Assembly: GCA_949288145.1 (NCBI GenBank)
Contig: CASEJD010000024.1
Coordinates: 1 to 64,000, forward strand
Direction: 5' to 3'
DNA length: 64,000 nucleotides
From: an uncultured Coriobacteriia bacterium
GTDB lineage: Bacteria > Actinomycetota > Coriobacteriia > Coriobacteriales > Eggerthellaceae
In this document: positions 24,339 to 61,245 of the stretch, one piece after another
Layout: every line of letters begins with the position of its first letter
Numbering within the stretch: the stretch's first letter is position 1
Notes under the pieces: generated by a model
Told to the model about the DNA's origin: nothing
Database searches by the model: none
The model's input: only the letters and a program-made list of their open reading frames with translations
Translations under genes and position numbers: made by a program

Positions 24339-24356
24339 ATAAAAAATGCTGCAAAG

Positions 24357-24433
24357 TGGTGCGCCGTGAGGGATTCGAACCCCCGACGTACTGATTCGTA
24401 GTCAGTCCCTCTATCCAGCTGAGGTAACGGCGC
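24357..24433 (-). tRNA. tRNA-Arg(ACG), copy 1
   Basis: A 77-nt cloverleaf with encoded CCA: acceptor GCGCCGT/ACGGCGC, D-stem CCTC/GAGG, anticodon loop CTACGAA giving ACG, T-arm GGGGGTTCGAATCCCTC. A34 is expected to be edited to inosine by TadA, whose gene lies at 29568. Confidence 0.95.
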
Positions 24434-24536
24434 ATCTCGAATGCAGCCCATTTATAATATCAAAGCTAGAAGGCATGTCAATGGGTTTTCTTGGAGAAGT
24501 GCAAGCTCCGAATCCCTCACGGCTTTTCTGGGCATG

Positions 24537-24558
24537 AAAAAAGCCCCAATCCGGGGCT
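24537..24558 (-). terminator. Terminator after tRNA-Arg copy 2
   Basis: On the minus strand, AGCCCC/GGGGCT stem (24542-24547/24553-24558) followed by T6. Confidence 0.85.
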
Positions 24559-24576
24559 CTTCCAATGCTGAAAAAG

Positions 24577-24653
24577 TGGTGCGCCGTGAGGGATTCGAAC
24601 CCCCGACGTACTGATTCGTAGTCAGTCCCTCTATCCAGCTGAGGTAACGGCGC
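24577..24653 (-). tRNA. tRNA-Arg(ACG), copy 2
   Basis: Identical in sequence to the copy at 24357-24433, including CCA and about 14 bases of 5' flank (CATCTCGAATGCAG). The repeat period is 220 bp, and each copy has its own terminator, although the spacers differ. Confidence 0.95.
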
Positions 24654-24776
24654 ATCTCGAATGCAGCGAAAAGAATTATCTTCGTTCGTCAAAAAAGTGT
24701 CAAGGCTTTCTTTCGGGCCTTGTGGGGAGTTTTCGGCAGGCATGGCGCGCCGAACGCGCTGTGCCTGCCGTCTCCG

Positions 24777-31127: not shown

Positions 31128-31213
31128 GGTTCGAATCCCTTCAAGCGCAAAAGCGCCCCTGCAGGATGATCCCGCAGGGGCGCATGTGATTTCTGGCGGA
31201 GAGTTAGGGATTC
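31128..31213. repeat. 86-bp direct repeat, copy 1 (tRNA-Ser 3' end plus terminator)
   Basis: 83 of 86 bases are identical to 31321-31406. It contains GGTTCGAATCCC, a 10-bp terminator stem (31153-31162/31174-31183, T4 on the minus strand) and TGGCGGAGAGTTAGGGATTC, the 3' end of the tRNA-Ser(GCU) gene without the rest of the tRNA. Confidence 0.85.
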
Positions 31214-31215
31214 CC

Positions 31216-31298
31216 GCGCCCCGCTGCGCGGGGCGCTCAACCCCTCCCTCGCAAGCTCGGTCGGGCGAAACGCTAAAAACGCGCCACTGGCGCGTTTT
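31216..31298. repeat. Hairpin pair inside the tRNA-Ser(GCU) duplication
   Basis: A 9-bp perfect stem at 31216-31224/31228-31236 and a bidirectional terminator-like stem at 31276-31285/31289-31298 (AAAA and TTTT at the flanks). Confidence 0.8.
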
Positions 31299-31320
31299 CT
31301 TCACGTGTTTCCACCTCATC

Positions 31321-31406
31321 GGTTCGAATCCCTTCGAACGCAAAAGCGCCCCTGTAGGATGATCCCGCAGGGGCGCATGTGATTTCTGGCGGAGAGTTAG
31401 GGATTC
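31321..31406. repeat. 86-bp direct repeat, copy 2 (terminator plus tRNA-Ser 3' end)
   Basis: Copy adjoining the intact tRNA-Ser(GCU); the terminator stem 31346-31355/31367-31376 with T4 on the minus strand serves that tRNA. Offset from copy 1 is exactly 193 bp. Confidence 0.85.
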
Positions 31407-52298: not shown

Positions 52299-52517
52299 CG
52301 TGTTGACGCTCGCAGCGTGCCTAGAGAGGCTGTCGTTTTGTGCATCGGGTGGGGGAGATTTGTGCCGCGTGTGGCCTCCTTGTTCACTTTAGGAAACAGA
52401 AATAACGTAGCGCCCTTTACGGCCAAAGAAATGGCATTGTGCTTAGATGAAACGATAGAGCGATACGACGAACGATGTCGCACTTGGATTGATAGCACTA
52501 TATGACCGGGGGCGAGC

Positions 52518-53087
52518 ATGGAACGTTATACCGACTGCAAGAATTGTTTTTGTTCGGGACTCTCTCCCGAGGCACGACGACTGATTTGCGAGAACGCGCA
52601 CCGCATCCACTACAAGCAGCGTAACGAACAGGTCATGTTCTTGGACAGTAGGCACGTGCTCATCATGGAAAGCGGCTACGCGTTGATATCACGTGGCTTT
52701 ATGACGGACAAGCAGCAAGGAACCGATATCTTGGAGCCAGGGAGCGTTGTGGGCATCGTCCAGCTGTTCCAGCCAGATTACACCGCAACGCTTAATTTCC
52801 TCCCGCTCACGCCCGTGTCGGGCTGCATGGTTCGCTTGTCTCTGATAGAAAAGCTTGCTGCCGAGAACGCCGAGATCGCCACCGCGCTGTTGAAGGAGTT
52901 CTCCGTCCGGTACGGTCGCGTGGTCAGCAAGCTCGCCATCCACTCGTATGGCACGGCGAACCAAAGGTTGCAGTTCTCAATCGCGCGCGTGCGTGAATTG
53001 GGATTGGAGAAAGAGATCACTCACGAAGACCTTGCATGCTTGTCAGGCTTGAGCCGCGTGACGGTGACCAAACTGCTCAATTCGTGA
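52518..53087 (+). CDS. Short Crp/Fnr-family regulator with N-terminal cysteine cluster
   Basis: A 189-residue regulator. The N-terminus MERYTDCKNCFCSGLS has Cys7, Cys10 and Cys12, reminiscent of FNR-type redox or iron-sulfur ligands. A cyclic-nucleotide-like beta barrel follows (EQVMFLDSRHVLIMESGYAL, ILEPGSVVGIVQLF). The chain ends with the helix-turn-helix ITHEDLACLSGLSRVTVTKL, with little or no wing after it. Family members often control fermentation or respiration genes. It is convergent with the LUD gene and near the permease/decarboxylase cluster, the likely targets. A weak GGGGGCGAGC precedes the ATG. Confidence 0.82.
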   Translation: MERYTDCKNCFCSGLSPEARRLICENAHRIHYKQRNEQVMFLDSRHVLIMESGYALISRGFMTDKQQGTDILEPGSVVGIVQLFQPDYTATLNFLPLTPVSGCMVRLSLIEKLAAENAEIATALLKEFSVRYGRVVSKLAIHSYGTANQRLQFSIARVRELGLEKEITHEDLACLSGLSRVTVTKLLNS

Positions 53088-53099
53088 ACCAGGTCTCCC

Positions 53100-53152
53100 G
53101 CATGCCGCCCTCGCCCGGATGCATGGTGATGTTCGGGCGAAGACGGCGATGC
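53100..53152. terminator. Shared hairpin between convergent crp-like and LUD genes
   Basis: Imperfect inverted repeat 53100-53117/53134-53152 (one bulge, one mismatch) between two convergent genes; no T-run. Confidence 0.5.
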
Positions 53153-53159
53153 GACAGGG

Positions 53160-53792
53160 CTAGTGTCCGAGCTCTTCGCCCACAAGAATGACTTTGATCC
53201 TGCCGTCATGACGGCTGTGTCGAGTGACGACGAGCTGGCAGCACATGCTCTTGGGCACGTGGCAATCGCCGCACACGCCGACGCGGTCGCATGGCGTGTC
53301 TGGATGAAGGTCCGCAGCGTTCATGGGGCACGTGGTCGTCCTGATGCGCTTGAAGGCGGAGTCGACGTCTGCCGTGACCTTGTTCATGCCTGCGACGATG
53401 ATGACGTGCTGGGGACCGTGCAGCAGCAAGGACAGGCGGTTCGAATTGCCGTCGATATTCACGAGCGCCCCGTCACGCGTGATGGCGTTCGTGCTCATAA
53501 GGAAGTAATCGGCCTCTGCGCGCTCGAGCCATGCAGCGCGCGGGTCGTCTTTGGTTTCCTCTGAAGGAACGACCCGATAGGCGCCCTCTTTCAGCATCCT
53601 TCGCACGCCAACCTCATCAAGGGTCCTTGATCCGCCCCACGTGACGGTCGACCCCTCTGGAATCATGTCCCTGACGAGCTCGCGCGCCTCTTCCCCCGTC
53701 TCGCAGTAGATGCCCTCGATATTGCGCTTTGCAAGGCCGTCGATGATGACGGCCGCAGTCTTTGCGTACGATGCCTTCCGTGCTTCGTCCAT
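53160..53792 (-). CDS. LUD-domain (lactate-utilisation type) protein
   Basis: A single LUD/DUF162 domain of 210 residues: IYCETGEEARELVRDMIPEG, VTWGGSRTLDEVGVRRML, DYFLMSTNAITRDGALVNID, then VAGMNKVTADVDSAFKRIR and a cysteine-rich end (CPMNAADLHPDTPC, CGDCHVPKSMCC). LutB/LutC, which share the domain, act in lactate oxidation, but LutA and LutB partners are absent. ATG 53792 follows GGAGGAG. It is divergent from an LctP-family permease, which suggests a shared substrate or shared control. True role unknown. Confidence 0.85.
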   Translation of the reverse strand: MDEARKASYAKTAAVIIDGLAKRNIEGIYCETGEEARELVRDMIPEGSTVTWGGSRTLDEVGVRRMLKEGAYRVVPSEETKDDPRAAWLERAEADYFLMSTNAITRDGALVNIDGNSNRLSLLLHGPQHVIIVAGMNKVTADVDSAFKRIRTTTCPMNAADLHPDTPCDRVGVCGDCHVPKSMCCQLVVTRHSRHDGRIKVILVGEELGH

Positions 53793-54116
53793 GGTCTCCT
53801 CCGATCTTCGCGGGTGCGCTGCTTGACGACAGTATGGACAAAACGTCGGCGCGCGTCGATTGGCGAGCAATCGCGGGCTTTTCATCCTCCCGGCGTTCTC
53901 AAATTCATGCATGCAGGTCAAATGCCCAACATTACGAAATAGTCGCGACGTCAAAACCCAGGCTACAAGAAATTCGTGTCGTACGAACAATCCAAACGGT
54001 AGCGGTACTAGCAGATTCGTCACGGGGCTTCCGGCACTATTTTTCTCAAGGCAAACAGGGGAGAAAGGGGGCGCAGGTCGTTTGCCTCGAAGCGAAAAGA
54101 GAAAAGGAGGATACGA
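53793..54116. promoter_or_regulatory. Divergent control region between LUD and permease genes
   Basis: 324 bases, noticeably richer in A+T than the flanks. It holds a short inverted repeat TTCGT-N5-ACGAA (53973-53987) and the permease ribosome site AAAAGGAGG (54101-54109). No coding region supported. A plausible target of the adjacent Crp/Fnr-like protein. Confidence 0.4.
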
Positions 54117-55634
54117 ATGGACGGAGGAATGCTGCAAATCATTTTGGCGTTGTTGCCGTTCGCAGTGCTGTTCGTCGGCTTTACCGTGTTCAAGGCCGAC
54201 GCACTTAAGCTCAGTCTTGCCGTATGGGTGCTGGAGTTGGTGGTCTGCTTCGGTATGTACCGTATGGACCCCGTCAAACTCATCCAATCGTCATTATGGG
54301 GAAATATCACGCTGTGGACCGGATTCCTTGTTCTGTGGTCTGGCCAAGTGTTCGGATCGTGCTATCGCTCGACAGGCTTGCTTGACATCCTGCTCAACAC
54401 GCTCGGTCGCATCATGCCGAGCAAGGAGGGCAAGGCCACGACGCTCGTTACGGTTGTCGCCGGTTACCTGGGCGCATTCAATGGCTTCGCGACGTATCCC
54501 GTCACGATTCCCGGCCTGAAGAAGCTTGGGTTCTCTGGTCTTCGAGCGGCCGCAGCGTACCTGGTGTACTTCGCGTGGAACATCGCGTTCGTGAGCTTGT
54601 TCGTGGCTGCCAACATCGCTGCGGGCGTTTCGAAGATTCCTATCGAGCAGATCATCCAGGTGATGGGCCTTATCTCGCTGCCGTTGTGCGTGATCTCCAC
54701 TGTTGGCTTCTTCAAGATTCTCGAGTTCGATCTGAAGAAGAAGGACAACATCATGATTGCCGTCCTGACGATGATCGGCAACATGCTCGCTGTCGTTCTG
54801 TTCACCCAGATTCTGCCCAGCCTGTACTTGCTGACGTTGATTGCTTCGGCGACGTTCTGCCTGATCGTGTTGAAGCTGTACAGCCGCAAGTACGACAAGA
54901 GCGAATTCGAGGATAGCGACGAAGAGATTCACACGACGTCCGAAATCCTGAAGTCCTTCGGCCCGCTGATTTGCTGCATGGTGCTCGTCATCCTGATGAG
55001 CTACCCGCTCGAGGGCATCGTCAACGCCGCGACCATCCATCTGTCGCTGTGGGGTTACAGCGCCACGAGCATCAGCCTGCTCGACGCGCCCGGCACGTTC
55101 GTTCTGGTGACGGCCATCCTATGCCATCTGTTCAGGGTGAAGAAGACCTCGTCCTTCGCCAAGGACGTTGCCGTCGCTTCGAAGCGCGCCGTCCCGTCGC
55201 TGCTGACACTTCTGTGCGGTGGCGCAATGGTTCAGCTCATGCTCGACACGAATCAGATTTCCATGCTGGCGACCACCATGGCCACGTTTGGTGCAGAGGC
55301 GTACACGGGTTGCATCGGCATCCTGTCCTTCCTGTGCGGCATGGCGTTCGGCCAGGGCATGCCCGCAGTCCGCATGCTGGCAAGCATGCAGATGTCCGCC
55401 GGTCCCCTGCTGGGCATCGCGCCGGTCGTGCTGATCGGCCTGGCGACCATCATCTGCATGGGCAGCGCCAACCCGCTCAAGCCGTCCCTGCTGAAGTACA
55501 CGTCTTCCTTGGCCGACATAAAAGGCCAGGATGGCCAGCTGTTCAATCTGTGCCTGCCGTGGCAGGCAATCGCGCTCGTCGCGTGCGTTGTCATCGGATT
55601 GGTGATGGTGGCGGTGGGCTACACGCCCGTGTGA
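54117..55634 (+). CDS. LctP-family (L-lactate permease type) transporter
   Basis: A 505-residue membrane protein with 12-14 hydrophobic segments in the arrangement of the lactate permease family: LWGNITLWTGFLVLWSGQVF, GYLGAFNGFATYPVTIPGLK, LLCGGAMVQLMLDTNQISML and GMAFGQGMPAVRMLASMQMS, then GSANPLKPSLLKYTSSLADI. Characterised members carry lactate or glycolate with protons; related proteins may take other hydroxy or aromatic acids. ATG 54117 follows AAAAGGAGG. It lies 89 bases before ubiD on the same strand, possibly one transcript. Confidence 0.82.
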   Translation: MDGGMLQIILALLPFAVLFVGFTVFKADALKLSLAVWVLELVVCFGMYRMDPVKLIQSSLWGNITLWTGFLVLWSGQVFGSCYRSTGLLDILLNTLGRIMPSKEGKATTLVTVVAGYLGAFNGFATYPVTIPGLKKLGFSGLRAAAAYLVYFAWNIAFVSLFVAANIAAGVSKIPIEQIIQVMGLISLPLCVISTVGFFKILEFDLKKKDNIMIAVLTMIGNMLAVVLFTQILPSLYLLTLIASATFCLIVLKLYSRKYDKSEFEDSDEEIHTTSEILKSFGPLICCMVLVILMSYPLEGIVNAATIHLSLWGYSATSISLLDAPGTFVLVTAILCHLFRVKKTSSFAKDVAVASKRAVPSLLTLLCGGAMVQLMLDTNQISMLATTMATFGAEAYTGCIGILSFLCGMAFGQGMPAVRMLASMQMSAGPLLGIAPVVLIGLATIICMGSANPLKPSLLKYTSSLADIKGQDGQLFNLCLPWQAIALVACVVIGLVMVAVGYTPV

Positions 55635-55685
55635 TCGAAGGGCTGAAGAGCGCGCTGGCGCCGACTTTCGCGAGCGCGCTTGTCA

Positions 55686-55716
55686 CATCGAAGGGTACCA
55701 ACCCAAGGTAAGGAGG
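55686..55716. repeat. 31-bp direct repeat, left copy (holds the ubiD ribosome site)
   Basis: 30 of 31 bases match 59698-59728; the sequence includes TACCAACCCAAGGTAAGGAGG. Here it is immediately followed by the ubiD ATG (55724). Confidence 0.9.
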
Positions 55717-55723
55717 AACGACC

Positions 55724-57136
55724 ATGTACAAGGACCTGCGCGAGTTCTTGGCCGAGTGCGAGCTCGCCGGCGACGTCATCCACGTCGCGCGGCCGGTCGA
55801 CTGCGACCTGGAGATCGGCAAGGCGCTCAAGAAGAGCTACGAGGGGCGCTGCCCGGTCATCTACTTCGACGACCCGAAGGGCAAGGCCTTCCCGGCCGTC
55901 GGCGGCGTGTTCGGCAACCGCGCCAAGGCGCTGCGAGCCTTCGAGGCGACCGAGGAGACCATCCACCAGAAGTTCATCGACGGCATCGCCAACCCCATCG
56001 CCCCGGTGATGTACGAGGGCGACGTCGCCCCGTGCCAGGAGGTCGTGGTGATGGGCGACGAGGTCGACCTGAACAAGCTGCCCATCCCCCGGTTCTCCCC
56101 CAACGACGGCGGCGCGTTCATCACGGCCGGCCTGACGGTCTCCAAGGACCCCGAGACGGGCGTGCCCGACGTCGGCCACTACCGCTACCAGTACCACGAC
56201 GAGAAGACGCTCGGCTACATGGCCCAGCCCTTCCACCGCTTCGGCAAGAACTGCAACAAGGCGCTGGCCATGGGCAAGAAGTCCTGGGAGGCCGCCATCG
56301 TGATCGGCGGCGACCCGGTGATGCACTACTGCGGCCCGCTCGTGGGCGTCTCCGACGACGCGAACGACTACGAGCTCATGGGCGGCCTGCGCGGCGCCCC
56401 GGTCGAGCTCGTGAAGTGCAAGACGGTCGACGTCGAGGTCCCCGCCTGGGCCGAGTTCGTCATCGAGGTCGAGGTCGACTTCGAGACCACGCGGATGGAG
56501 GGCCCGCTCGGCGAGTTCACCGGCTACCAGACGCCCGCCTCCGAGAAGTGGGTCTCGCGCGTCAAGTGCGTCACGCACCGCCGCAACCCGCTGTTCCAGG
56601 TCCTGCTGACCGGCCAGCCCGTGACCGAGAACCACATCCTCAAGAACGTCCCGTTCGAGGCGTCCATGTACAACTTCCTCAAGCAGCAGTTCCCGACGGT
56701 TTCCGCGGTCAACGTCCTGCCCGCCGGCGGCGTGCAGACCGAGGTGGTCGTGTCCATGACGCAGCGCAACTACGGCGACGCGCGCCACGTCATCCTGGCG
56801 GCCATGGCGAGCAACCTGCGCCCGAAGTACGTCGTGGTGGTCGACGACGACATCGACGTCCACAACCTCGACCAGGTCAACTGGGCCATCGCCTACCGCA
56901 GCATTCCCGGCAAGGACACCATCATCGTCGAGGACGTCCCGTCGAGCCCGCTCGACCCGTCGAGCTACCTGCCTGATACCCATGGGGTCAAGCTCGAATG
57001 GTCGCAGCTTGCGAAGATGCGCCAGAACGGCGCCCTCGGCATCGACGCCACGTTCCCGTTCGGCCTCCCGCACGAGGCCATCGCCGACGTGCCCGGCTGG
57101 AAGGAGTACGACTTCCCCGAGCTCGACGAGCGCTAG
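55724..57136 (+). CDS. UbiD-family prenylated-FMN decarboxylase
   Basis: Reversible (de)carboxylase of aromatic or unsaturated acids, 470 residues, cytoplasmic. The catalytic E-R-E network is visible: Arg154 in GHYRYQYHD, Glu259 and Glu264 in RMEGPLGEFTGY (spacing as in Fdc1). VIGGDPVMHYCGP and VVVVDDDIDVHNLDQVNW are standard UbiD segments. It is of the size of hydroxyarylic-acid decarboxylase C subunits (gallate, vanillate, 4-hydroxybenzoate types). Adjacent ubiX and lpdD-like genes supply prenyl-FMN and the small subunit. Codons end almost entirely in G or C, unlike the following carrier gene. AAGGAGG precedes ATG 55724. Confidence 0.92.
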   Translation: MYKDLREFLAECELAGDVIHVARPVDCDLEIGKALKKSYEGRCPVIYFDDPKGKAFPAVGGVFGNRAKALRAFEATEETIHQKFIDGIANPIAPVMYEGDVAPCQEVVVMGDEVDLNKLPIPRFSPNDGGAFITAGLTVSKDPETGVPDVGHYRYQYHDEKTLGYMAQPFHRFGKNCNKALAMGKKSWEAAIVIGGDPVMHYCGPLVGVSDDANDYELMGGLRGAPVELVKCKTVDVEVPAWAEFVIEVEVDFETTRMEGPLGEFTGYQTPASEKWVSRVKCVTHRRNPLFQVLLTGQPVTENHILKNVPFEASMYNFLKQQFPTVSAVNVLPAGGVQTEVVVSMTQRNYGDARHVILAAMASNLRPKYVVVVDDDIDVHNLDQVNWAIAYRSIPGKDTIIVEDVPSSPLDPSSYLPDTHGVKLEWSQLAKMRQNGALGIDATFPFGLPHEAIADVPGWKEYDFPELDER

Positions 57137-57147
57137 GGCAAGTGAAA

Positions 57148-57179
57148 AAGGGAGGGGCTGGAATCAAGGCCCCTCCCTT
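57148..57179 (+). terminator. Hairpin after ubiD
   Basis: An 11-bp perfect stem (57148-57158/57169-57179) followed by GTTTGGTT. It would reduce transcription into the carrier gene and make ubiD the most abundant product. Confidence 0.75.
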
Positions 57180-57205
57180 GTTTGGTTGATTAAGGAGGCG
57201 CAAAC

Positions 57206-58582
57206 GTGAACCTGTCGCTCAAACAAAGCGATGCTTGGAAATGGGCGATAACGCTGATTGCCACGGTAGCGCCTTTGGCGTTTCCGCTGCAGCAAGACTA
57301 TCGAATCTTCCTGTGCTTGTCGTTTCTTGCCATATTCATTTGGGCATTTGACCTGATTCAGTACGCTGTCGTCGCCGTCATGCTGCCGGTGCTCTACATC
57401 GTCTTCGGCCTCACCGACGCGGAGACGGCGTTCAGCGGCTGGGTGAGCTCGTCGAGCTGGATCACGCTCGGCGGCCTGCTATTCGGCGCAGCGTTCATGA
57501 GAAGCGGCCTGGCGAAACGAATCGCGTTCAAAATGATCGCGCTCACGAAAGGGACGTTCGCGGGCATCGTTTTCGCGTTGACGATCACATGCCTTATCAT
57601 CACGCCGGTCATTCCTTCGGTCATGGGAAAGATCGTGCTGATGGTCCCGATTGCCATTGAGGTGTGCAATGCGCTTGGCTTGAAAAAAGGCGACAAGACC
57701 GCCGCGGCGATCATCACGGTCATTTTCTTCGCGTTGTGGTCGCCGAAGATGGCGTTTCCGACCGCCTCGACCGACGCGATTCTTGCCACGAGCATCCTGA
57801 CCGACCAATACCACTACGAGGTCACTTGGCTTGGGTGGGCGATAGACATGTTCGTACCGGCGATCTTGTGGACCTTCGTCTCGGTCGGGCTTGTGTGGCT
57901 GCTGAAGCCGGCGAAAGTGAAGCTCGACAAGGCGGAAAGCATTGAGCGCTATCGCGCGCTCGGTCCATTGTCGGGGAACGAGAAGAAACTTGGCGTGCTG
58001 ATGATTGCCGTCCTTTGCCTTTTGGCGACGGAACAGCTGCACGATATCGACCCTGCATGGATTCTGGTCCTGGTCGCCTCGCTGTGCTTCTTGCCGCAGC
58101 TCAAGATCTTGGAACCGAAGGATTTCCAGACGACGGACTTCTCGGTCGTGTTCTTCCTTTCGGGCGCCGTGTCCATCGGTGCGGTGGCGTCCCAGATCGG
58201 TATTACGCAAGATATCGTTTCGGGCCTTCAGCCGGTCCTCGCGAACCACTCTAGCTTCGTTCTCTCGATGACCCTGTACGTGTTCTCGATTTTGGCGAAC
58301 TTCTTGCTGAACCCCATTGCACTCATTGCGACGCTAATGGGGCCGGTCACGGAGTTGTGCCAAAGCCTCGGGTACTCGCCGCTGCTGGGCGCCTACTCGA
58401 TGATCATGGGGTTCAACCAAGCCTTGTTCCCGTACGAGATTGCCCCCTTCATGCTGGTGTTCAGCTACGGGTACATGCACATGGGCCAGACCGTGAAGGT
58501 CATGGCGGTGCGAATTGCGGCAGGCCTGGTCTTTACGGCCCTTATCACGTATCCCTGGTGGATGCTCGTCGGGCTCGTGTGA
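57206..58582 (+). CDS. DASS (SLC13)-type anion transporter
   Basis: A 458-residue membrane protein: LPVLYIVFGLTDAETAFSGW, SSSWITLGGLLFGAAFMRSG, LIITPVIPSVMGKIVLMVPI (first SNT-like hairpin region), FPTASTDAILATSILT, and FLLNPIALIATLMGPVTELC in the second half. The family takes up di- and tricarboxylates or sulfate with Na+, and some members exchange aromatic acids. Placed between ubiD and ubiX, it probably imports the decarboxylase substrate. GTG 57206 with AAGGAGG. Base composition is lower in G+C than ubiD. Confidence 0.85.
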   Translation: MNLSLKQSDAWKWAITLIATVAPLAFPLQQDYRIFLCLSFLAIFIWAFDLIQYAVVAVMLPVLYIVFGLTDAETAFSGWVSSSSWITLGGLLFGAAFMRSGLAKRIAFKMIALTKGTFAGIVFALTITCLIITPVIPSVMGKIVLMVPIAIEVCNALGLKKGDKTAAAIITVIFFALWSPKMAFPTASTDAILATSILTDQYHYEVTWLGWAIDMFVPAILWTFVSVGLVWLLKPAKVKLDKAESIERYRALGPLSGNEKKLGVLMIAVLCLLATEQLHDIDPAWILVLVASLCFLPQLKILEPKDFQTTDFSVVFFLSGAVSIGAVASQIGITQDIVSGLQPVLANHSSFVLSMTLYVFSILANFLLNPIALIATLMGPVTELCQSLGYSPLLGAYSMIMGFNQALFPYEIAPFMLVFSYGYMHMGQTVKVMAVRIAAGLVFTALITYPWWMLVGLV

Positions 58583-58606
58583 GCCTTTTGGAAGGTGGTG
58601 TGACGC

Positions 58607-59179
58607 ATGAGGCTGATTGTGGGTATTTCGGGTGCAAGCGGGGTCTTGATGGGGCTTCGTCTACTTGAGGAGCTCAAGCGTCATCAAGGCGTTGAGGCGC
58701 ACGTGGTGATAACCGAGGCGGCATGGAGGAACTTCGAGCTTGAGACGCAAGCTGATCGAGAGACCGTCTACGCGCTTGCGGATTATGTCCACAGCAACGA
58801 CAACCTCGGCGCGGTCATAGCGAGCGGCTCCTTCAGAACGGACGGAATGGTGGTCATTCCGTGCAGCATGAAGACGCTGTCGGCAATTGCGAACGGATAT
58901 GACAGCAACCTGCTTGTTCGCGCGGCGGACGTGTGCCTGAAAGAAGGCCGCAAGGTCGTGCTGGTCCCTCGTGAAATGCCGTTGGGCGCTTCCCATGTTC
59001 GGAATATGGCGCTTGCGCTCGACGGAGGTTGCTGCGTGATGCCTCCAATGCTCACGTTCTACAACCACGCAGACACCCTCGAGCAGCAGGTTGACCATGT
59101 CGTAGGGAAGATCCTGCTCCAGTTCGGGCTTGAGCCAACGCGCTTCAAGCCGTGGAAAGGGGACGAGTGCGATGCGTGA
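58607..59179 (+). CDS. UbiX-type flavin prenyltransferase
   Basis: Makes prenylated FMN for UbiD from FMN and dimethylallyl (pyro)phosphate. The 190 residues start RLIVGISGASGVLMGLRLLE (FMN loop) and include VVIPCSMKTLSAIANGYDSN, VLVPREMPLGASHVRNM and MPPMLTFYNHADTLEQQVDH, all family signatures. It belongs with the decarboxylase cassette as a B-type subunit. Its stop overlaps the next gene (59172-59179). Confidence 0.93.
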   Translation: MRLIVGISGASGVLMGLRLLEELKRHQGVEAHVVITEAAWRNFELETQADRETVYALADYVHSNDNLGAVIASGSFRTDGMVVIPCSMKTLSAIANGYDSNLLVRAADVCLKEGRKVVLVPREMPLGASHVRNMALALDGGCCVMPPMLTFYNHADTLEQQVDHVVGKILLQFGLEPTRFKPWKGDECDA

Positions 59180-59630
59180 ACGGTTCGCCGAGTACACGGT
59201 AAGCGCCGGCAGCGACGAGAGGCTTGCGGTCCGATTGGAGCTCAAAGACACGGGGCGTGGCTGGCTTGGCCTGTTGACGGGCGGAGAGAGCCCCCATATC
59301 GGTGGCGTCGTGCTCGCCACGCCGCGACCAAGCTTGGCGGATCCATCCAAAACGAGCTGCGATGTAGCCTCGATTCCGGTGAGCGGGCACCTCGATAACG
59401 AGGTGGGATCCGAAGTGGCAGCGCTTTTGTGCAAGACGATGGAGGACGCGGTTGTCGTGGTGTCAGGAATTCACGCTGACAACGCCTCTCCAGACGATAT
59501 AACGGAAATCTATCGCAACGTGAGCAATGCGACCGGCCAGATGCTTGACCAAATCGACCGAAGCAAGAATGGCCATTCACGAAGCGTGCAGCAGGACTCC
59601 TCTCAACACCCCCAAGTCCTGCCTGCATAG
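59172..59630 (+). CDS. LpdD-like small subunit / prenylated flavin chaperone
   Basis: A 152-residue protein: RFAEYTVSAGSDERLAVRLE, GESPHIGGVVLATPRPSLAD and SCDVASIPVSGHLDNEVGSE match the small D-subunit domain of hydroxyarylic acid decarboxylases (LpdD/VdcD-like), shown to help activate the C subunit. The C-terminal 25 residues (KNGHSRSVQQDSS...) look disordered. It overlaps ubiX by eight bases. With ubiD and ubiX it forms a complete B-C-D decarboxylase set, although in the unusual order C-carrier-B-D. Confidence 0.8.
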   Translation: MRERFAEYTVSAGSDERLAVRLELKDTGRGWLGLLTGGESPHIGGVVLATPRPSLADPSKTSCDVASIPVSGHLDNEVGSEVAALLCKTMEDAVVVVSGIHADNASPDDITEIYRNVSNATGQMLDQIDRSKNGHSRSVQQDSSQHPQVLPA

Positions 59631-59634
59631 TCAC

Positions 59635-59676
59635 GAGCCCGCAAGCGCGCAATTCCCCTCTATCGCTTGCGGGCTC
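59635..59676 (+). terminator. Terminator of the decarboxylase cassette
   Basis: A 13-bp perfect stem (59635-59647/59664-59676), loop 16, directly after the lpdD-like stop; followed by CTCTCGTT, without a long T-run. Confidence 0.75.
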
Positions 59677-59697
59677 CTCTCGTTGAAGGACGGTTTT

Positions 59698-59728
59698 CAT
59701 CGAAGGATACCAACCCAAGGTAAGGAGG
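59698..59728. repeat. 31-bp direct repeat, right copy (relict ribosome site)
   Basis: Matches 55686-55716 at 30 of 31 positions, including AAGGTAAGGAGG, but the following start codon is ATA instead of ATG and no ubiD-like frame follows. It marks the right boundary of the cassette, 4,012 bp from the left copy. Confidence 0.9.
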
Positions 59729-59773
59729 GGCGCCATACGAGCAATCGGTGTGCCGTGTGCGTATCTTTCGTCC

Positions 59774-59833
59774 TTGCTTGACATACTACTCATACATATA
59801 CTATTCGTAACAAGTATATTTATGAGTAGTATG
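59774..59833 (+). promoter_or_regulatory. AT-rich promoter with 13-bp inverted repeat
   Basis: CATACTACTCATA (59782-59794) and TATGAGTAGTATG (59821-59833) are a perfect inverted repeat with 26 bases between. TTGCTT (59774-59779), 17 bases, TATACT (59797-59802) form a promoter between and over the arms. The right arm would be in the 5' end of the message. Much more A+T-rich than the rest of the window. Confidence 0.7.
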
Positions 59834-59847
59834 TTTGGAGCTGCATC

Positions 59848-61245
59848 ATGTTTGTCGCGCGAGAGCGAGAGCTTGCCGATCTCGAAAGCTGCTATCGGCA
59901 GCCGACGTTTCAGATGGTCGTGTTGTATGGGCGGCGCCGCGTGGGGAAGACGGCCCTTTTGGAAGAGTTCGCTCGAGGAAAGCGAGCCCTCATGTTCACG
60001 GCGCAACAGCAGGGCGAGCGTGACAATCTCCGGGACTTCTCTCGGGGAATGTACGCGTTTTTCAACATGCCGACGTCACTACCTGCTTTCGAAAGCTGGC
60101 TTGACGCGTTTGAGTTCTTGGCGCAGAAAGCCGCCCGCGAAAAAACGCTCATCGTGTTCGATGAATTTCCGTACGCAGCAAAGGCGACTCCGCAGCTACC
60201 GTCGGCACTGCAGATTGCCATTGACCGCTGGTTTTCGAAAACTCAGTCGATGATAGTGCTCTGCGGCAGCAATCAGGGCTTCATGGAAGACGAAGTGCTG
60301 GGCGAGAAGAGCCCCCTGTACGGTCGGCGAACGGCTCAGATGAAGTTGAAGCCGTTCGATTACTATGACGCCGCCCGCATGATGCCGAGCTCATCTGCGG
60401 TCGAGCGCATCGTGTATTACGCGAGCTTGGGCGGCACGCCGTACTATTTGAGCGCGCTGCGTTCAAGCGAGTCGTACGTTCAGAACGTCGCGCGGCTGTT
60501 CTTCGACCGCACGGGATTGATGTTCGACGAGCCCGGTATGCTGATGCGCCAAGAACTGCGAGAGCCATCGATGTATCACTCGGTTCTGCGCGCCCTCGCG
60601 CACGGAGCGAATCGCTCGAACGAAATAGCCGATCGTACGGGCATCCCTTCGTCAAGCATCACTATGTACCTCAAAACGCTCGCCGACCTTGACGTTATCG
60701 AGCGGCTGGTTCCGTTCGGGGAGCCCGAAAAGAGCAAGCGGAGCCTGTATCGCATCAAGGACCCTGCGTTCGCGTTCTGGTTCCATTTCGTGGCGCCGTT
60801 CGTGCCTGCTATTGAAAGTGGCCTGGGCGAGCAGGCGGCAGTGCGGCTGCTGGAAGGCCCTCAGTTGAGCGAGTACGTGGGCCGCCTGTTCGAGCGAGCG
60901 TGCCTTGAATGGCTTGTGCGCGAATCGCGTCGGCTTCCCATCGAGCCGACGCGATTCGGATCGTGGTGGGGAACGGATCCGCGTACGCGCGCGCAAGACG
61001 ACATTGACGTTATTGCGGCAGACGATATCGACAAGCGCGCGATCATTGGCGAATGTAAATGGCGGACAAGTTTTGACGAGAGCGCAACGCTTGAGAAGCT
61101 GGAAGGCCGCACTGCCCTCGTGCCCGGATACCGAGAGTATTGGCGTTTTCTGTTCACCAAGGCACCCGTGTCGGAGGCGACCCGCAGCAAAGGAGCGATC
61201 GAGCCGCATGTGCGGTTCGTCACTGCGGACGACCTGTTCGCGTAA
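59848..61245 (+). CDS. DUF234-type P-loop ATPase with C-terminal nuclease-like domain
   Basis: A 465-residue protein. It has an N-terminal AAA-like ATPase (FVARERELADLE, Walker A GRRRVGKT at 28-35, Walker B TLIVFDEFPYA), sensor LCGSNQGFMEDEVLG, and a winged helix (RSNEIADRTGIPSSSITMYL). The C-terminal DUF234 part has DIDVIAADDIDKRAIIGECK, which fits a PD-(D/E)xK nuclease core (Asp...Glu-x-Lys). Such proteins are common, mobile and of unsettled function in archaea and anaerobic bacteria. ATG 59848 follows TTTGGAG. It stands alone under an AT-rich palindromic promoter. Confidence 0.85.
   Translation: MFVARERELADLESCYRQPTFQMVVLYGRRRVGKTALLEEFARGKRALMFTAQQQGERDNLRDFSRGMYAFFNMPTSLPAFESWLDAFEFLAQKAAREKTLIVFDEFPYAAKATPQLPSALQIAIDRWFSKTQSMIVLCGSNQGFMEDEVLGEKSPLYGRRTAQMKLKPFDYYDAARMMPSSSAVERIVYYASLGGTPYYLSALRSSESYVQNVARLFFDRTGLMFDEPGMLMRQELREPSMYHSVLRALAHGANRSNEIADRTGIPSSSITMYLKTLADLDVIERLVPFGEPEKSKRSLYRIKDPAFAFWFHFVAPFVPAIESGLGEQAAVRLLEGPQLSEYVGRLFERACLEWLVRESRRLPIEPTRFGSWWGTDPRTRAQDDIDVIAADDIDKRAIIGECKWRTSFDESATLEKLEGRTALVPGYREYWRFLFTKAPVSEATRSKGAIEPHVRFVTADDLFA

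Follow-up and report, generated by a model that had tools for sequence, protein, structure and literature searches.

We analyzed a 64,000-nucleotide stretch of contig CASEJD010000024.1 (the window; positions 1 to 64,000, forward strand) from an uncultured Coriobacteriia bacterium of the Eggerthellaceae (assembly GCA_949288145.1; genome of 2.10 Mb, 98.4% complete). Between pgi and hypF, it carries a predicted acid-decarboxylase gene cluster in which a pair of 31-bp direct repeats flanks four genes. On the plus strand, the conserved cluster begins with a gene for an LctP-like permease (lctP, 54117..55634), followed by the genes for a UbiD-family decarboxylase (ubiD, 55724..57136), a DASS/Na_sulph_symp carrier assigned by domain models (dass, 57206..58582), a UbiX flavin prenyltransferase assigned by curated models (ubiX, 58607..59179) and a predicted LpdD-like chaperone for reduced prenylated flavin mononucleotide, prFMNH2 (lpdD, 59172..59630). 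The left repeat (55686..55716, plus strand) forms the leader of ubiD, including its Shine-Dalgarno sequence, and the right repeat (59698..59728, plus strand) lies beyond lpdD. Upstream of lctP are genes for a Crp-like regulator (crp, 52518..53087, plus strand) and for a LUD-domain protein (53160..53792, minus strand), the latter outside the conserved cluster and with a start codon of our choice.

The UbiD protein scores above cut-off for its N-terminal, rift and C-terminal domains (PF20695, PF01977 and PF20696, respectively) and for TIGR00148 (299.7 bits, cut-off 244.85). It contains EGPLGE at residues 259–264 and HYRYQ at residues 152–156, which we take, from what is known of Fdc1/UbiD, to be the catalytic Glu-x4-Glu motif and Arg, these residue roles being predicted. 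The UbiX protein matches TIGR00421 (205.1 bits, cut-off 108.9) and NF004685 (231.9 bits, cut-off 188). Both proteins fall below the curated cut-offs of the Vdc models, UbiD for VdcC (NF041204, 277.8 of 650 bits) and UbiX for VdcB (249 of 290).

The LpdD-like protein matches Pfam PAC_bac at 1.3e-29. Its single sequence matches the solved LpdD weakly (0.09), and a profile of nine homologues matches the same structure (8p4w) at 3.2e-13. An AlphaFold2 model (mean predicted local distance difference test score 81.7) was compared with the PDB by Foldseek; ranks 1–6 were all LpdD chains (best match 9.9e-7, template-modelling score 0.69 by target, root-mean-square deviation 3.9), followed by yeast and human proteasome-assembly chaperones. 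The LpdD of Lactobacillus plantarum is a prFMNH2-binding chaperone with a metal site formed by His35, His61 and Asp63 (PMC10865409). The residues of this site are matched in the window protein by H42, H73 and D75 (H73-x-D75), and H42 and H73 are invariant in 9/9 homologues. Sequence and model together suggest an LpdD-type prFMNH2 chaperone, for which prFMN binding is predicted. As the earlier note had proposed, the cassette thus holds a complete UbiD/UbiX/LpdD set plus a carrier.

The same arrangement recurs in distant bacteria. In Syntrophomonas sp. UBA4807 (locus L006 of genome G781), the order is crp (divergent)-lctP-ubiD-dass-ubiX-lpdD, with identities to the window proteins of 43, 59, 63, 49, 59 and 31%, respectively. 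A second genome of that phylum (G1189) has the same order, with identities of 36, 60, 62, 48, 63 and 32% (the lpdD value by tblastn). The window shares with both an identical order from lctP to lpdD with crp alongside; the Crp-like regulator is ~41.5–43% (L006) and ~34.6–36% (G1189) identical to their divergent crp products, and no LUD gene was noted there between crp and lctP. A 4-kb contig from an Acholeplasmataceae metagenome-assembled genome (L005) carries lctP-ubiD. The order decarboxylase-carrier-UbiX-LpdD, previously called unusual, is therefore normal for this subfamily, since it recurs in both UBA4807 and G1189.

Clusters of this type are nevertheless rare. Close relatives of the window UbiD were found in a single genome, its own, among 138 genomes of the family (E ≤ 1e-60), 396 of the class sample (1e-70) and 396 of the phylum sample (1e-90). 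Likewise, the class of UBA4807 yielded UBA4807 itself (1/63, 1e-100) and its phylum sample two genomes including it (2/398, 1e-95). Plasmids gave one relative (E ≤ 1e-80), from Legionella lytica, at 45% identity, and none was found among 14 pattern stretches of viral contigs. The LpdD domain occurs in 10/138 family genomes, own included, and three of the family loci read for it carry a more distant UbiD at 28–30%. In genome G027 (L069, G027:C11, 8570-15938), a DASS carrier accompanies another, distinct set of UbiD, UbiX and LpdD (UbiD 28%) about 5.7 kb from pgi.

The repeat pair reported in the earlier note is real. According to the repeat listing of the window, the copies agree at 30/31 bases, 21 bp of them exact and contiguous, in direct orientation and 4012 bp apart from start to start. 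The analytic chance expectation, given the base composition of the window, is about 5e-7 such pairs per 64 kb, and 100 dinucleotide shuffles gave no match at up to three mismatches. The likeness ends with the repeat: the flanks were no more alike than in shuffles, upstream (score 25, shuffle mean 23.6) or downstream (27, shuffle mean 22.1, maximum 34). When searched at up to three mismatches, the own genome (2,096,998 bases, 181 contigs) contained these two copies and no third. None was found in the 137 other family genomes (27 bases, three mismatches allowed), exactly matching in viral contigs, or in the three related clusters read.

The left copy supplies the ribosome site of ubiD, as noted earlier. 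It contains TAAGGAGG, 7 bases ahead of the ATG, and the Shine-Dalgarno score of ubiD is the highest among the genes compared, tied with that of the carrier gene. The right copy carries the same site, followed by GGCGCCATA, and no gene is found there; it continues into GGCGCCATACG without a start codon. Its one mismatch (G to A) disrupts a short GGGT/ACCC stem that folding predicts for the left copy, and no relative read has the right repeat. It has the appearance of a defunct ubiD leader, a view that our analysis supports. It is best read as a non-functional duplicate near the right junction of an island.

The sister species G021 shows what the locus looks like without the cluster. There, a 370-bp spacer with none of the island genes separates pgi from hypF on a single contig, and the region of the window from ~52300 to a palindrome at 59781 is missing (52300..59780 on the plus strand, edges approximate), as is the ATPase gene that follows. 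In 5/5 further family loci (L055–L059, from G001, G010, G011, G017 and G020), pgi likewise adjoins hypF without the island genes. The G+C content at third codon positions (GC3) of the island genes other than ubiD is 0.69–0.81, against 0.88–0.92 for the four neighbouring genes measured. Of the mobility proposed earlier for this cassette, one part holds: its genes are foreign at this position, as judged by the pgi-hypF locus in relatives. The other part, repeats as the boundary of the moving unit, does not. The absent unit runs from ~52300 to ~59780 with the left repeat inside it, and the related clusters begin further left, with crp and lctP, so that the left repeat is internal to the conserved cluster. 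Most of the arrangement is ordinary, and the two copies are not the marks of a cassette moving as a unit. The right repeat is close to the island edge because that edge falls between the end of lpdD (59630) and 59781.

We therefore favor, as the probable reading, an acid-decarboxylase operon of the LpdC/B/D kind that entered the pgi-hypF interval by horizontal transfer and in which the right repeat is a non-functional copy of the ubiD leader. We infer that the duplicate would have come from a local duplication or templated insertion near the right junction; copying of the leader during or after insertion of the island would be the cheapest account of it. Several points weigh against this reading. 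On the right, the island ends somewhere within ~150 bp (59630-59780), which leaves the position of the right repeat at the junction unproven, and either copy could be the older one. With completeness of 86% for G021 and 85% for G022, absence of the operon elsewhere in both is weak evidence, although the G021 locus itself is empty. Finally, the GC3 of ubiD is unlike that of the rest of the operon, so that a one-step transfer of a uniform operon is too simple or strong codon selection is needed.

This last point bears on the strongest alternative, in which ubiD alone was swapped in place by the ubiD of a GC3-rich relative (xenologous displacement) and the extra leader is a by-product. GC3 is 0.983 for ubiD, compared to 0.81 for lctP, 0.80 for the carrier gene, 0.71 for ubiX and 0.69 for lpdD. 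Change-points fall at 55599 (range 55599-55629) and 56971 (range 56950-57220), around ubiD alone, with GC3 of 0.993 between them, 0.812 to the left and 0.766 to the right; the log-likelihood gain is 78, whereas 30 shuffles run on a coarser grid reached no more than 12.5. The edges of the exchange would thus lie in the lctP-ubiD gap and near the 3′ end of ubiD. The gene also has the highest GC3 of 73 open reading frames picked in the genome (next 0.956), a selection that kept frames in which the G+C content decreases from third to first to second codon position, dropped ubiX and lpdD, let in a few antisense frames and counted a few frames twice at overlapping loci. In other clusters, ubiD stays close to ubiX, within 0.03 in 3/3 other family UbiD clusters measured and within 0.05 in both cluster relatives; the latter have neither the 31-bp repeat nor the GC3 jump at ubiD seen in the window. 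Against an exchange, the amino-acid distances of UbiD, LctP and DASS to their relatives are congruent, and no GC-rich donor was found, the phylum sample holding only the own genome. Expression selection may also explain the GC3: four-fold C usage is 0.643 in ubiD and 0.641 in each of fusA and infB, compared to 0.516 in pgi and 0.474 in hypF, whereas tuf departs from ubiD by more T. The codon usage of ubiD thus resembles that of genes for which high expression is expected in this genome, which weakens its GC3 as proof of foreign origin, a use we rejected. The data point to either replacement of ubiD or strong codon selection, and we keep both; displacement, which is compatible with the favored island reading, is a tangible but lesser possibility. 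If it is true, the locus shows one catabolic enzyme swapped while the cofactor and transport genes stay. Separately, 5/8 AT-ending codons of ubiD fall at codons 417–429, beside an insertion of about ten residues missing in three relatives (both within 56971-57030).

The earlier note had also raised a second ubiD-type gene on the right, later deleted. In our version, a tandem copy (a leader with another ubiD and perhaps more) was lost except for the leader. The sharp edges of the right repeat, which stops where a gene would begin, fit this history. However, it requires two events, no remnant of a second ubiD was found past the right repeat (L060) or elsewhere in the genome, and G1189, with ~4.6 kb after lpdD, has one ubiD only (the UBA4807 contig stops soon after lpdD and is uninformative here). 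We regard this explanation as unlikely.

Loop-out or exchange across the repeats is possible in principle. Recombination between the copies, now or in the past, would delete the segment from ubiD to lpdD, leaving lctP with one leader. Direct repeats of 31 bp only 4 kb apart would suit such an event: short repeats recombine without RecA in Escherichia coli (a 46-bp repeat around cat), and an E. coli genomic island bearing 11–20 bp homologies excises with no self-encoded recombinase (PMC5426353). The small H47 island described there resembles the present one in its short direct repeats and in that no recombinase gene was found; the H47 repeats enclose the entire island, and PCR detected its excised forms (PMC5426353), whereas the left repeat of the window is internal, the conserved cluster continuing to its left. 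Moreover, neither a third copy nor an excised form or swapped module was found in the own genome or the 137 family genomes, the GC3 change-points enclose ubiD alone (55599-56971) instead of the repeat-to-repeat segment, and the own genome, with one UbiD gene, has no second one with which decarboxylase modules could be exchanged, as had been suggested. We therefore consider this quite improbable. A related idea, that the paired leaders would form a plug-in position at which ubiD alone has been replaced by a GC3-rich relative through recombination at its leader, while recombination between the leaders can remove the ubiD-to-lpdD block, keeping the permease and switching decarboxylation off, is more doubtful still.

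The least credible alternative, a regulatory element (operator or RNA leader) shared by ubiD and something on the right, draws on the strong Shine-Dalgarno sequence of the left copy but meets no Rfam family near the repeat, folding no better than shuffles (z-scores 0.78 and 1.15), no further copy in the genome or in the three related clusters and no gene fitted to the right copy. A riboswitch was rejected on the same Rfam and folding results, and a target-site duplication because the left copy lies within the conserved cluster and the annotated island genes include neither a transposase nor an integrase.

By analogy with gallate decarboxylases, the operon of our favored reading probably imports and non-oxidatively decarboxylates a (hydroxy)aromatic or related unsaturated carboxylate. 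UbiX would make prFMNH2, which the LpdD-like protein would hand to UbiD, and UbiD would decarboxylate an acid that the DASS carrier, the LctP-like carrier or both import. Solved UbiD relatives include decarboxylases of several substrates, and the substrate class given here, a small and probably aromatic acid, is a putative one. The window shares a UbiD-family enzyme, UbiX and an LpdD-like chaperone with LpdC-LpdB-LpdD of L. plantarum and sgdCBD of Streptococcus gallolyticus, as well as carrier genes, an ion-transporter-type carrier gene being co-induced in L. plantarum (PMC4600210, PMC4218992). Unlike these systems, it groups every gene, two carriers included, in a single cluster in which the DASS gene separates the UbiD and UbiX genes, and its UbiD scores below the VdcC cut-off. 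In L. plantarum, the genes for LpdB, LpdC, LpdD and the carrier lp_2943 are gallate-induced, and a proton-motive force from gallate/pyrogallol exchange has been proposed (PMC4600210). In the same way, exchange of acid and product plus proton uptake may conserve energy here.

A terminator-like hairpin lies in the gap between ubiD and the carrier gene (57148..57179, plus strand; z-score −3.4 for the surrounding 70 nt). Together with the strong Shine-Dalgarno sequence and the codon usage of ubiD, it would fit a higher output of UbiD and suggests, as read from the sequence, more UbiD than carrier, UbiX and LpdD. A second hairpin stands at the end of lpdD (59622..59689, plus strand), with the stem GAGCCCGCAAGCG / CGCTTGCGGGCTC. 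We propose no promoter because a sigma-70 scan gave no promoter-like site, compared to 2.6 in shuffles. The cluster is a rare addition to the UbiD/UbiX/LpdD decarboxylase operons, and its conserved two-carrier layout, common to distant bacteria, helps to predict how substrates are imported and how UbiD is paired with its cofactor chaperone.

The next gene after the right repeat is an ATPase/DUF234 gene (59781-61245 including its own upstream palindrome, gene from 59848), which matches the candidate phage-defence model PDC-S27 at 4.2e-61. The AT-rich palindrome (22+10+22 bp) stands directly before the gene start. The pgi-hypF spacer of G021 retains a similar palindrome without the ATPase gene, so the gene or a relative may once have stood there. 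The palindrome-like stretch upstream of a 55% identical paralogue on G000:C54 (L071:3024-4421) is a different one. In G022 (L054, G022:C96, 2777-8160), pgi is followed by another palindrome and an SLFN/AlbA_2-type gene, as well as by transposase-like open reading frames, identified by reading the frames. The pgi-hypF interval is thus a place of gene gain and loss, and insertions there seem to include defence-like genes.

Two other repeats were observed elsewhere in the window. Two tRNA-Arg(acg) genes lie 220 bp apart inside a 95-bp identical repeat (24353-24667), and next to a tRNA-Ser gene is an exact direct repeat of 51 bp (31163-31406; spacing 193 bp).

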